From: Hyphomicrobiales bacterium
Lineage (GTDB): Bacteria; Pseudomonadota; Alphaproteobacteria; Rhizobiales; Aestuariivirgaceae
Direction: 5' to 3'
Length of the DNA: 57,230 nt
Assembly: GCA_025363755.1 (NCBI GenBank)
Contig: JANYLQ010000034.1
Coordinates: 1 to 57,230, forward strand
The position numbers and the translations under genes are program-made. The notes under the pieces are model-generated. The model did no database searches. It was given only the letters and a program-made list of their open reading frames with translations, and was not told the DNA's origin. Below are positions 13,189 to 57,230 of the stretch, piece by piece. Position 1 is the first letter of the stretch, and each line of letters starts with the position of its first letter.

Positions 13189-13337
13189 CCTCTACCGCTT
13201 CGCGGGAGAGGAAAGGGGCCCGCCGCATAGCGGCGGGATAGGTGAGGGGCAGTCAGACTCCGAACCTGCGGTCCCTCATCTATCCCGTTCCGCTATCGCG
13301 AAATGGGCCCCTTTCTTCTCCCGTTTCACGGGAGAAG
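13189..13337. repeat. Large imperfect inverted repeat (palindromic intergenic element)
   Basis: Two ~60-nt arms, 13189-13249 and 13273-13337, are inverted relative to each other. Shared blocks in order are CGGGAGA, GAAAGGGGCCC, ATAGCGG, CGGGATAG and TGAGGG. Each arm also has its own small hairpin (CCGCTTCGCGG; TCCCGTTTCACGGGA). The layout resembles the palindromic repeats scattered through rhizobial genomes. It fills the gap between rnj and parC, both on the minus strand, and could fold into a long hairpin that ends or processes transcripts. Confidence 0.75.
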
Positions 13338-25709: not shown

Positions 25710-25712
25710 GGT

Positions 25713-25826
25713 TCATTTCCCCACTTGACTGATTGCACCGTCGCTGTAGGAACGATAGGTGTACTGATCAATAAGTTTCAATAAGACACTAACGCTCGCT
25801 GCTGCGAATTTTTTTGTAGAAAACAT
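25713..25826 (-). pseudogene. Short ORF resembling a duplicated NuoF C-terminus
   Basis: A 37-codon ORF starts ATG two bases after the stop of the upstream unknown gene and ends 4 bp before the DUF3291 ATG. Its second half, LIDQYTYRSYSDGAI, is close to the NuoF C-terminus [15 protein letters not shown], and the DNA aligns over about 50 bp (ATTGA, CCTATCG, GACGG blocks). The first half does not match NuoF. The simplest reading is a decayed copy of the nuoF 3' end left when sequence was inserted or duplicated here. It might instead be a translated small protein. Confidence 0.5.
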
Positions 25827-25828
25827 CG

Positions 25829-26266
25829 TTACAAATACCCCCATTTTTGGAGTTTTGCGATTAGCAATTTTCTCTGCTGTTCCGCTTTTTGCATGAGTGC
25901 AATCTGAATATGCCCATTTTCTGCCATGTAATTCACGGAATCAAGGCCAACCGATTTTCCAGAGTTATTAAATTCACTGCTTAGTTTATCTAAAACTATC
26001 TGCTCTTGGTTAGTTATCTGTACAAAGTTCCCTAATGAAACAAACCCAACTTTCAGCGTTTCATAAAGATCAGCATCAGTGCACTGGCTTAATGCTGCCA
26101 ATATCGTTGCCTCTAAAGTTTCTTTGTCTATAGGGAGAACATTCGCGTTAGTTACTGGTTCACCAGCAGTTGCTTCGAGAATTGCGCCATAAGAACGTAA
26201 CAAATTATTGTAATCAATTTGCGGTGTTGCTTGCTTAGGGGATAATATTTTGCTGAGCCAACCCAT
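25829..26266 (-). CDS. Unknown small protein between nuoF and the NuoF-like remnant
   Basis: A 145-residue protein of unknown family. It starts MGWLSKILSPKQA (membrane-proximal amphipathic start), then mostly helical sequence: DYNNLLRSYGAILEAT, KETLEATILAALSQCTDADLY, VSLGNFVQITNQEQIVLDKL and a terminal LMQKAEQQRKLLIAKLQKWGYL. No signal peptide. The DNA looks A+T richer than the surrounding nuo genes by eye, which suggests later arrival. The ATG at 26266 follows a GGGG stretch and is preferred over a GTG one codon earlier. It begins 5 bp after the nuoF stop. Confidence 0.6.
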   Translation of the reverse strand: MGWLSKILSPKQATPQIDYNNLLRSYGAILEATAGEPVTNANVLPIDKETLEATILAALSQCTDADLYETLKVGFVSLGNFVQITNQEQIVLDKLSSEFNNSGKSVGLDSVNYMAENGHIQIALMQKAEQQRKLLIAKLQKWGYL

Positions 26267-26271
26267 CACCC

Positions 26272-27576
26272 CTACTCCGCCGCATGGCGCACGGCGCCGT
26301 CTGGATCAGAGCGATAGGTATATGCGTCAATCCGCGCTTCAATCACGGGTCTGAAATGCGTGATCAAGCCCTGCACCGGCCAAGCCGCAGCATCGCCCAA
26401 TGCGCAAATTGTATGGCCTTCGATTTGTTTGGTCACGTCGAGCAACATATCAATCTCGCGCTTTTCGGCGCGGCCTTCGACCATGCGGTTGAGCACGCGC
26501 ATCATCCAGCCTGTGCCTTCGCGGCACGGCGTACATTGACCACAAGATTCATGTTTGTAGAAAGCGGCAAGCCTAGCGATGGCGCGGATGAGATCAGTTG
26601 ATTTATCCATCACGATTACTGCCGCTGTGCCAAGGCCGGAGCGGAGTTTTGAAAGCGAGTCAAAATCCATCGGCGTGTCGATAATTTGCGCAGCTGGCAC
26701 CATGCGCACCGACGAACCGCCGGGAATGACAGCCAACAAATTATCCCAACCGCCACGAATGCCGCCAGCATGTTTGTCAATCAATTCGCGGAAGGTGATG
26801 CCCAGCTCTTCTTCCACATTGCACGGCGTGTTCACATGGCCGGAGATGCAGAATAATTTTGTGCCAACATTATTTGGGCGACCCATGGAGTTAAACCACG
26901 TTGCGCCACGGCGGAGAATTGTTCCGGTGACGGCGATGGATTCCACATTGTTCACTGTGGTGGGTGCACCATAGAGGCCGACATTGGCAGGGAATGGTGG
27001 CTTCATGCGCGGCTGACCTTTTTTGCCTTCCAAGCTTTCAAGCATGGCGGTTTCTTCGCCGCAAATATACGCGCCTGCGCCGTGGGCGATGTAGATATCG
27101 CAATCCCAACCATGGATGTTATTTTTGCCAATGAGCTTTGCTTCATAGGCTTGATCGATGGCGGCTTGCAGATGTTCCCGTTCACGGATGTATTCGCCGC
27201 GCACGTAGATATATGCCACGTTGCATGCCATGCCCATGCAGGCAATCAGGCAGCCTTCGACCAGCAAATGTGGATCATGGCGCATGATCTCACGGTCTTT
27301 GCAGGTGCCGGGTTCGGATTCGTCAGCATTGACCACGAGGTAATGCGGACGCTCGCCAACAACCTTGGGCATGAAGGACCATTTTAGCCCCGTCGGAAAA
27401 CCAGCGCCACCACGGCCACGCAGGCCAGAGGCTTTGACTTCGTTCACAATCCAGTCGCGACCCTTGTCGATGAAGAACTTGGTATCAAGCCAGCAGCCTC
27501 GTTGTTTAGCGCCAGCTAGGCCCCAATCGTGGAGGCCATAGAGATTTGTGAAAATGCGGTCTTTATCAGCGAGCAT
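26272..27576 (-). CDS. nuoF: NADH-quinone oxidoreductase subunit F
   Basis: A 434-residue subunit that binds NADH, FMN and a [4Fe-4S] cluster (N3), where electrons enter complex I. The NADH-binding glycine motif [17 protein letters not shown] and the FMN region [18 protein letters not shown] are present. The cluster motif [14 protein letters not shown] and a later cysteine in [14 protein letters not shown] complete the site. The C-terminus [16 protein letters not shown] is the segment echoed by the small ORF at 25713-25826. Confidence 0.97.
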
Positions 27577-42066: not shown

Positions 42067-42142
42067 CGTCATGCCCGCGAAGGCGGGCATCTGCGTTTGG
42101 TAGTGAATAAAACAGAGATTCCCGCCTTCGCGGGAATGACAG
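42067..42142. repeat. Inverted pair of REP-like palindromes
   Basis: The left arm reads GTCATGCCCGCGAAGGCGGG with CATCTG (42068-42093). The right arm, read on the other strand, is GTCATTCCCGCGAAGGCGGG with AATCTC. Each unit is itself a hairpin around GCGAAGGC. The pair lies between the convergent Lys/Pro-repeat gene and the lytic transglycosylase, where it may also end transcription. Confidence 0.85.
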
Positions 42143-50790: not shown

Positions 50791-50879
50791 CGTCATGCCA
50801 GCGAAGACTGGCATCCCGCTTTCCTTTTAAAAGTTGTGCTCGTTGCTAGCTGGACCCCAGCCTTCGCTGGGGTGACGGG
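50791..50879. repeat. Inverted pair of REP-like palindromes
   Basis: The left unit CGTCATGCCAGCGAAGACTGG (from 50791) and the right unit, which reads CGTCACCCCAGCGAAGGCTGG on the other strand (up to 50879), face each other about 25 bp apart. Both continue into TCCAGCT- or TCCCGCT-type ends. They belong to the same family as those at 42067, 56584 and 57039. Confidence 0.85.
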
Positions 50880-56405: not shown

Positions 56406-56583
56406 GGAAGAACCTCGGGTGGGAGTGAATCAGATTGCAAATATTTAGCATATGTAGGGAGGCCAAAGGTTAATGGGAAGGGGGTGGTCAATGATTGGTT
56501 ATGGTAATGGTACCGCACCCACCCTTCCCTCGTCGGCAAAGACTCTAAAACACCCACTAAACTCTGTGACCACCCCCTAGGCT

Positions 56584-56616
56584 CCGTCACCCTTGCGAAG
56601 GCAAGGGTCCAGCTTT
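56584..56616 (+). repeat. Left 33-nt inverted repeat of the GIY-YIG unit (REP-like)
   Basis: The unit starts CCGTCACCCTTGCGAAGGCA and continues to CCAGCTTT. It is identical over 33 nt to the complement of 57091-57123. Internally it is a hairpin around TGCGAAGGCA. It covers the last codons and stop of the GIY-YIG gene. Confidence 0.9.
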
Positions 56617-56934
56617 TGGTTCAACGAGTGTGGCTGTTGCATCGATAGTTTCATGTAAATCTAACCAATCAGGGTTCATTTCTTCGATCTGCCGGAATTT
56701 CCAATCGCGTTTCCACACTTTCAATTGCTTCTCGCGCTTGATGGCATCGAGCATGCCATGGTGGTATTCGTACCAGACCAGGAGACTGAGTTTGTATTTT
56801 GAAGTAAAGCCCGGAGTGGTTCCATTTTTATGATCCCAAACCCGGCTCCATAAAGCACTAGTGACACCGATATAGATTGTTCCGCGATAACGGTTTGCCA
56901 CGATATAGACTGCAGGGTGTTTTTCTTGGGACAT
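56587..56934 (-). CDS. GIY-YIG nuclease-family protein ending in a REP-like repeat
   Basis: A 115-residue single-domain protein. The GIY-YIG pair appears as VYIVANRYRGTIYIG (Tyr10, Tyr21). The catalytic arginine is Arg31 in SRVWDHK and the metal glutamate is Glu69 in IKREKQLK. The family sequence ends near NPDWLDLHE. The final residues (KAGPLPSQG and the TGA stop) come from the adjoining palindromic repeat. Such small GIY-YIG proteins are widespread and of unknown function; related domains cut DNA in homing endonucleases and repair. Nothing else is coupled to it. Confidence 0.88.
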   Translation of the reverse strand: MSQEKHPAVYIVANRYRGTIYIGVTSALWSRVWDHKNGTTPGFTSKYKLSLLVWYEYHHGMLDAIKREKQLKVWKRDWKFRQIEEMNPDWLDLHETIDATATLVEPKAGPLPSQG

Positions 56935-57038
56935 GACCCGAGCCTATGGCCACGGTGAATGCGGTTCAAGAAGAAGCTGGACCTTTGCCTCTCGCTTCGG
57001 GCTAGCCACGTCGCAAGGGTGACGACACCCACCAATTT

Positions 57039-57123
57039 CGTCATTCCTGCGAAGGCAGGAATCCAGCTTTTTTAAACCGTTCCAACGCCCAAAGCTGGAC
57101 CCTTGCCTTCGCAAGGGTGACGG
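57039..57123. repeat. REP-like pair, including the right inverted repeat of the GIY-YIG unit
   Basis: The unit CGTCATTCCTGCGAAGGCAG plus GAATCCAGCTTTT (57039-57071) faces an inverted unit at 57091-57123. The latter is the exact complement of the 56584-56616 repeat. A partial copy of the right half (CGCAAGGGTGACG) also occurs near 57012-57024. The remaining 107 bp to the window edge hold no gene that I can support. Confidence 0.88.
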
Positions 57124-57164
57124 GAATGGGTGTGAGGACTGAATTTCAGTAGCAACCACTCCTG

Positions 57165-57203
57165 AGTATAAAAATAACTTCACCTATTATGTGATTTTAT
57201 ACT
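57165..57203. other. A+T-rich dyad at the right edge
   Basis: AGTATAAAA at 57165-57173 and its exact complement TTTTATACT at 57195-57203 form 9-bp arms 21 bp apart. It could be an operator or part of a promoter for a gene beyond the edge. No further evidence is visible. Confidence 0.3.
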
Positions 57204-57230
57204 GAATAACTCACTGAGTTCGAGATGTGG

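Follow-up and report, generated by a model that had tools for sequence, protein, structure and literature searches.

The stretch of DNA analysed here (the window) comprises 57,230 nt from a Hyphomicrobiales bacterium and closes with a 540-bp unit (56584-57123) consisting of a REP-type palindrome (R1), a gene for a GIY-YIG nuclease, a second palindrome with a split loop (R2) and an inverted pair of palindromes (R3-R4), the unit lying upstream of clpP and clpX (both identified by NCBIfam; Table 1). The initial annotation had pictured a compact GIY-YIG gene packaged between perfect inverted repeats, the left of which supplies the end of the reading frame. The outer arms (56584-56616 and 57091-57123) are indeed exact reverse complements, with an extended match of 36 nt at 97% identity, and R1 encodes the final nine codons of the gene (KAGPLPSQG) together with its TGA stop. 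The repeats also enclose a single gene, but the unit proved more complex than described in that it contains four REPs, and the perfect inverted partner of R1, which does exist, is R4, the far half of the inverted pair, and not R2, the repeat at the gene start. R1, R3 and R4 each possess the tag CGTC, an 8-bp stem, a GAAG loop and a CCA tail and hence belong to CGTC REP family 1. The hairpin of R1 has a folding energy of -8.7 kcal/mol (z -3.4), and R2 folds no better than shuffled sequences (z -0.4 over 56970-57030).

Table 1. Features discussed in the text, with their positions in the window
Feature	Position	Strand	Description
GIY-YIG nuclease gene	56587..56934	-	ORF of 115 aa; Y10, Y21, R31, H35, E68 and N87 present
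R1	56584..56616	+	CGTC-type REP: CGTC, stem ACCCTTGC/GCAAGGGT, loop GAAG, tail CCA; tag outward
R2	56974..57024	-	REP adjoining the gene start; loop split by ~20 nt; direct-repeat families D2 and D3
R3	57039..57071	+	REP, first half of the inverted REP pair; 82% identity to R1
R4	57091..57123	-	REP, second half of the inverted pair; exact reverse complement of R1; folds as a hairpin
R3-R4 inverted REP pair (REPIN-like)	57039..57122		84 nt; tags outward; z -5.4 as single-stranded DNA
Gene-less REP pair	42067..42141		75 nt; core pattern; fold z -9.0 as single-stranded DNA
Gene-less REP pair, one half with altered core GCGAAGAC	50791..50877		Core pattern; pairing judged by eye
Stretch without counterpart in the relative G017	56487..57170		684 nt, containing the whole unit

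Related palindromes had been claimed elsewhere in the window as well, and the core GTCAN{2,6}GCGAAGGC was found there six times against 0.02 expected. Throughout the genome, GTCAYNNNNGCGAARGC occurs 91 times and the reversed pattern not once. Whenever two GTCAN{2,6}GCGAAGGC cores lie less than 120 nt apart in this genome, they are inverted with their tags outward (18/18 pairs), and such pairs fall into two size classes, 68-73 and 80-85 nt from core to core; 33 of the 69 cores found with the pattern lie outside any such pair. These figures come from a pattern-based recount, since a scan requiring a CC tail recovered no more than 36 REPs, with 11 pairs of 83-87 nt. The gene-less pairs and the gene-bearing units have a common architecture, in which outward-facing tags enclose either a short spacer or a gene.

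The protein scores 39.9 bits against the Pfam GIY-YIG model (cut-off 22.6), and the same domain was detected in all 63 homologues that were aligned. In this alignment, Y10, Y21, G23, R31, H35 and N87 are invariant and E68 is conserved in 90% or more of the sequences; thus, the catalytic residues named at first are confirmed for Tyr10, Tyr21 and Arg31, whereas the catalytic Glu is E68 and not Glu69. An AlphaFold2 model (pLDDT 89.4, pTM 0.82) was most similar to the small GIY-YIG folds of 1zg2 (UPF0213; probability 0.99), 1ywl (0.96) and the GIY-YIG domain of UvrC (1yd6; 0.89), at a low identity of 21-25% and with E-values of 0.045 to 0.16, none of them at or below 0.001. Both the Pfam domain and the fold matches indicate that the gene encodes a GIY-YIG protein and not an HUH tyrosine transposase. 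No NCBIfam family was assigned to it, and it was rejected as a defence or phage gene since it matched no PADLOC family, no PHROGs family and nothing in phage records.

Three homologues are present in this genome (G000), namely the window copy and copies on contigs C16 (82% identity) and C61 (69% identity), and all three carry CGTC REPs. The C16 copy (C16:282-608) carries an in-frame deletion of 33 nt between two CTATA repeats, so that 11 residues forming the first half of the catalytic motif are gone. It differs from the window copy by a dN of 0.029 and a dS of 0.136, which together with the conserved catalytic residues suggests constraint, although the two values rest on only 8 synonymous and 7 other changes. 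The only other GIY-YIG gene found in the genome reads like the start of UvrC, and no CGTC REP was detected around it within the 3.2 kb examined, which cover one flank. The end of the window (57090-57230) is identical over 141 nt to the start of contig C16 (1-141), where the assembly breaks, and contigs C19 and C20 of the related genome G017 end alike at both corresponding loci. One copy may therefore stem from a larger duplicated segment, and, given the shared contig end and the same break in G017, we set aside the notion that clean transposition gave rise to both the window copy and the C16 copy. The assembly was probably broken by a multi-copy neighbour beside the window end and the C16 start; a search of the assembly for such a repeated neighbour of the shared 141 nt did not find it. 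A TTGACA-N15-TACTAT motif was seen beside the shared break sequence in G017 and in contig C20 of G000.

Comparison with relatives revealed that units and pairs are present or absent at matched sites as blocks. G017 is the nearest relative in the genus set, with a ClpP that is 100% identical, and its contig C19 is colinear with window positions 4557-56486 in blocks at 85-90% identity (one short piece at 69%). The REP core has no match in this colinear contig compared with six in the window. The gene-less pair at 42 kb sits in a stretch of 156 nt where G017 has 34 nt, and the pair at 50.8 kb in a stretch of 128 nt where G017 has 13 nt. At the clpP site, G017 has 156 non-aligning nt in place of the 684 nt of the window, as judged from a short right-hand anchor (33 nt at 82%) at which its contig ends. 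Neither a REP nor such a gene occurs in the 300 nt of G017 that reach up to the contig end at this site, or in the 206 nt that do so at the C16 site. The initial annotation had also allowed that the palindrome might just tolerate insertion near it, which is disfavoured because, as far as the contigs go, REPs and gene are absent together from G017 at the compared sites. Among 30 clpP loci surveyed from the 33 genomes with a ClpP match, no GIY-YIG gene was found upstream of clpP at any of the 29 other genus loci, four of which (G017 included) cover less than 700 nt upstream. Two further stretches of the window, 13222-13297 and 25710-26272, are also absent from the colinear contig, and both are devoid of the CGTC REP core. 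Inspection by eye revealed no clear target-site duplication.

A site of the opposite kind lies between hslV and hslU (identified by NCBIfam), where G017 has a REP-gene-REP stretch of 440 nt and the genomes G000, G018, G020 and G016 have an ATGA stop/start overlap. Related units precede hslU at the same junction and in the same direction at 3 of the 30 genus loci surveyed (G017, G007 and G026), hslV not being found in the stretch examined at six of the 30. Homology between the G017 and G007 copies runs from REP to REP and resumes in hslU, that between the G026 and G017 copies continues through the spacer into hslU, and the DNA outside the left REPs differs among these units, which argues that the unit varies as a REP-bounded block. 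Since three related units share one junction and the homology of the G026 copy extends through the spacer, the difference at this site may reflect loss of an old insertion in the line of G000 just as well as gain in G017, and a clean gain in G017 was dropped as an explanation in view of the related units in G007 and G026. The junction is variable within the genus (L284-L313), showing the overlap, a GIY-YIG unit, a likely acetyltransferase gene (as in G022) or a gap of ~1 kb.

The association of this nuclease family with flanking repeats was examined at 168 loci, 161 of which are distinct (7 GTDB loci duplicating family loci were removed). The set comprises 88 family loci and the best 80 of 95 confirmed loci from a GTDB scan, which come from several phyla according to the record titles; 48 of the 69 family genomes have a match, with 1 to 6 matches each, fragments included. 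Inverted repeats were sought within 250 nt on each side of the gene (score 14 or more), with positions in the same loci as controls, and 9 of the 161 loci whose flank is shorter than 250 nt at a contig end were retained in the counts. Of the 168 loci, 132 have an inverted repeat on both sides (2 of 656 control positions), 90 are flanked on both sides by CGTC REPs (none of 630 control positions) and 116 have a CGTC REP on at least one side (13 of 630 control positions). Counting distinct loci, the corresponding figures are 125/161, 85/161 and 111/161; 147 of the 161 have an inverted repeat or a CGTC REP and 14 have neither. A stricter REP scan, in which the outermost base had to be paired, missed many copies (58/168 loci on both sides and 82/168 on at least one, with 2 and 38 of 641 control positions, respectively). 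Therefore, homologues are usually flanked by palindromes, far beyond the near-zero level of the controls, which answers the question of chance raised at the outset. The outermost tags face outward at 59 of 85 distinct loci, and the gene-proximal REPs share this orientation at just 44 of 90 loci.

Five distant GIY-YIG hits (~30-36% identity, one of them, L231, also among the 168 loci) were considered in addition, and three of them have flanking repeats above the inverted-repeat threshold, with no CGTC REP at any of the five. Two of these distant genes, L231 and L322 (~30-33% identity), clearly exceed the threshold and are flanked by a CCTTCGAG..CTCAGG palindrome (scores 22 and 39), perhaps a third enzyme-repeat pair. 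In a Sphingomonas clade (L144, L149, L153, L154, L157, L158, L160, L161 and L163), both REP types occur around one gene, and at L149 a loop-GAAA REP is nested within a loop-CTTGA REP on each side.

The REPs adjoining these genes have either an 8-bp stem with a loop of 4 nt or a 9-bp stem with a loop of 5 nt, and the two structures were compared between gene lineages at the 88 family loci, 16 of which were assigned to a clade by best blastp hit (partial or weak matches were excluded from the clade and trans counts). Clade A has 41 loci with loop-4 REPs, 3 with loop-5 REPs and 16 with none, and clade B has no loop-4 locus, 21 with loop-5 REPs, 1 mixed and 6 with none. The same division is seen within single cells: in the 15 genomes with both clades, clade A genes adjoin loop-4 REPs in 16 cases and loop-5 REPs in 1 (8 without a scored REP), and clade B genes adjoin loop-5 REPs in 11 cases and loop-4 REPs in none (1 mixed, 4 without a scored REP). 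On a tree of 135 proteins, built from 96 columns and with 64 of 132 inner branches open, the two structures require 6 changes over the rows having either. Moreover, protein identity correlates with REP distance (rho -0.63 over the 66 loci with a scored REP, with 0/999 permutations as low; -0.48 over the 44 loci within clade A; -0.70 over 31 same-genome pairs). Both the counts in two-clade genomes and these correlations indicate that gene lineage, more than host, sets REP type. Such a match would be expected both of an enzyme that co-evolves with its site and of REPs and gene inherited as one block, and since the flanking REPs are linked to the gene, it is in part a result of the latter.

Lineage specificity is thus observed for the gene-adjacent REPs, and for genome-wide counts it is visible only weakly. 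The number of loop-4 REPs rises with that of clade A genes (rho 0.44 in 69 genomes and 0.60 in the 37 of the genus), and loop-5 REPs are weakly related to clade B genes (0.21, p 0.09, and 0.33, p 0.05, respectively). In the cross-comparisons, loop-4 REPs and clade B genes gave 0.27 (p 0.02) over the 69 genomes and 0.21 within the genus, and loop-5 REPs and clade A genes gave 0.01 in either set. Hence, the expectation that palindrome number tracks the gene holds for clade A, but it is weak for clade B and has exceptions in 11 of 69 genomes, which have at least 20 loop-4 REPs (the largest number being 143) and no assigned clade A gene.

On balance, we lean slightly towards the view that the nuclease gene and its REPs form a mobile REP-nuclease-REP unit, that the enzyme recognises the REP hairpin and that the REP pairs are gene-less derivatives of the unit. 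The target of the GIY-YIG enzyme would be the CGTC REP hairpin beside its own gene, which it would recognise in folded form and cut when replication, repair or uptake leaves this DNA single-stranded; host repair or replication might then copy the cut units or re-insert them elsewhere, which is the weakest step. Inverted REP pairs with a short spacer would be the gene-less derivatives of such units, as REPINs are for RAYT transposases. GIY-YIG enzymes hydrolyse DNA and alone cannot rejoin the ends as an HUH transposase does, so that completion of the cycle would depend on host functions. We infer that the window protein recognises and cuts the REP hairpin and, with less assurance, that cutting by the nuclease drives REP movement. 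On that supposition, to which we give somewhat less than even confidence, GIY-YIG nucleases would mobilise CGTC REPs in a second, chemically different form of REP mobility, in which REP-nuclease-REP units are the autonomous elements and REP pairs the miniature ones, and the single-stranded hairpin is nicked without a covalent intermediate. The initial annotation had suggested that the GIY-YIG protein might be a non-RAYT REP partner, and this suggestion is partly supported: the association with palindromes stands, and movement of the REPs by the enzyme is its putative part.

A different role for the same kind of enzyme, credible and in our judgement rather unlikely, is that an Ssn-type nuclease polices single-stranded DNA, cutting it at the repeats when it is incoming or exposed, and thereby tunes natural transformation and recombination, the repeats and the gene having spread mainly through recombination with taken-up DNA and not by transposition. 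Ssn is reportedly, according to a 2025 paper, a family of site-specific single-strand GIY-YIG nucleases acting on Neisseria repeats. A homologue 53% identical to the window protein, which may be Ssn itself, is found in N. gonorrhoeae (a 2.17-Mb record filed as a plasmid in PLSDB) and lies among CGTCATTCCCGCGCAGGC repeats. The CGTC-1 elements of Neisseria are the dRS3 repeats, according to the available portion of a 2013 survey (PMC3733652). Policing would likewise require specificity between gene and repeat. What sits less well with it is the block-wise variation between close relatives, namely REP-gene-REP blocks and gene-less pairs at sites that are REP-free in G017, although recombination with taken-up DNA could equally produce variation of this kind.

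It is improbable that a RAYT or other transposase moves the REPs and that the GIY-YIG gene is carried along or present for some other reason. The resemblance of the REP pairs to REPINs would agree with such a passenger role, as would the genomes that are rich in loop-4 REPs and have no assigned clade A gene, but neither a separate REP type for each gene lineage within one genome nor flanking repeats across several phyla, as seen at 147 of the 161 loci, would be expected of it. In addition, the available portion of the 2013 survey (PMC3733652) records no case of CGTC REPs on the flanks of a tyrosine transposase gene, and associations with transposases of other classes are described there as few and fortuitous. 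Still less probable, and disfavoured, is that the nuclease gene invaded existing REPs by cutting followed by repair copying, in the manner of a homing endonuclease gene. GIY-YIG enzymes do include homing endonucleases, according to the accessible part of a 2006 survey (PMC1564403), and the stop and last nine codons of the gene lie inside a REP; against this, the compared gene-less sites are REP-free too, so that REPs and gene go together, and homing into existing REPs was rejected since the empty sites hold no intact recognition site, if the REP is that site. A chance neighbourhood in a repeat-rich genome with 91 REP cores is refuted by the control positions (0/630 and 2/656 against 90/168 and 132/168 loci).

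The data, in which we favour the mobile REP-nuclease-REP unit, point to a missing partner for a large bacterial repeat family. According to the part of the 2013 survey available (PMC3733652), no agent for the spread of CGTC REPs was known at that time, and a nuclease partner specific to gene lineage puts this question within reach of a test. The loci assembled here provide dozens of natural enzyme-hairpin pairs, often with two types per cell, as well as occupied and empty sites for comparison between close relatives. REPs would be mobile without an HUH transposase if the nuclease drives the spread; otherwise, the collection remains a rich source of candidate enzymes that cut single strands in a sequence-specific manner. 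No literature link between GIY-YIG proteins and CGTC REPs was found among the matches listed. Term searches of the accessible text found no mention of nuclease, transposase or RAYT in RepRanger (2025; PMC12306157) and none of 'palindrom' in the 2006 GIY-YIG survey (PMC1564403).

As described in the available portion of Di Nocera (2013; PMC3733652), CGTC REPs are defined by the tag CGTC, a stem/loop of 8/4 or 9/5 and the tail CCA, occur mostly as inverted dimers, are widespread in Alphaproteobacteria, their main hosts, include the Neisseria dRS3 repeats, and are said to lack a dedicated transposase. The REPs of the window genome match this superfamily in tag, stem/loop, tail and inverted-dimer arrangement; what differs is that a single nuclease family has, next to most of its homologues, a CGTC REP (on one side or both at 111 of 161 loci) or another inverted repeat. 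In the REPIN-RAYT system, as presented in the accessible part of Bertels and Rainey (2011; PMC3116915), RAYT genes are accompanied by REPs paired in inverted orientation across a short spacer, each gene lineage has its REP type, several lineages may occur in one genome, and the RAYT is described as a single-copy gene that apparently cannot mobilise itself. Inverted pairs with a short spacer and several lineages per genome are likewise seen here, as is a REP type tied to gene lineage for the REPs adjoining the genes (only weakly so in genome-wide counts), whereas the protein is a GIY-YIG enzyme in place of an HUH tyrosine transposase, matches number 1 to 6 (fragments included) in 48 of 69 genomes, and the sites vary between close relatives.

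Judging from the 53% identical gonococcal homologue among CGTCATTCCCGCGCAGGC repeats and the equivalence of CGTC-1 and dRS3, the window gene looks like an alphaproteobacterial member of the Ssn family as reported. Both are small stand-alone GIY-YIG proteins whose genes lie among palindromes of the CGTC-1/dRS3 type; the difference is that the repeats here enclose the gene as one block, which is present or absent at matched sites. Relative to Ssn as reported there, the present analysis would add an enclosed unit that varies as a block, REP pairs as its derivatives and the test provided by two types in one genome.
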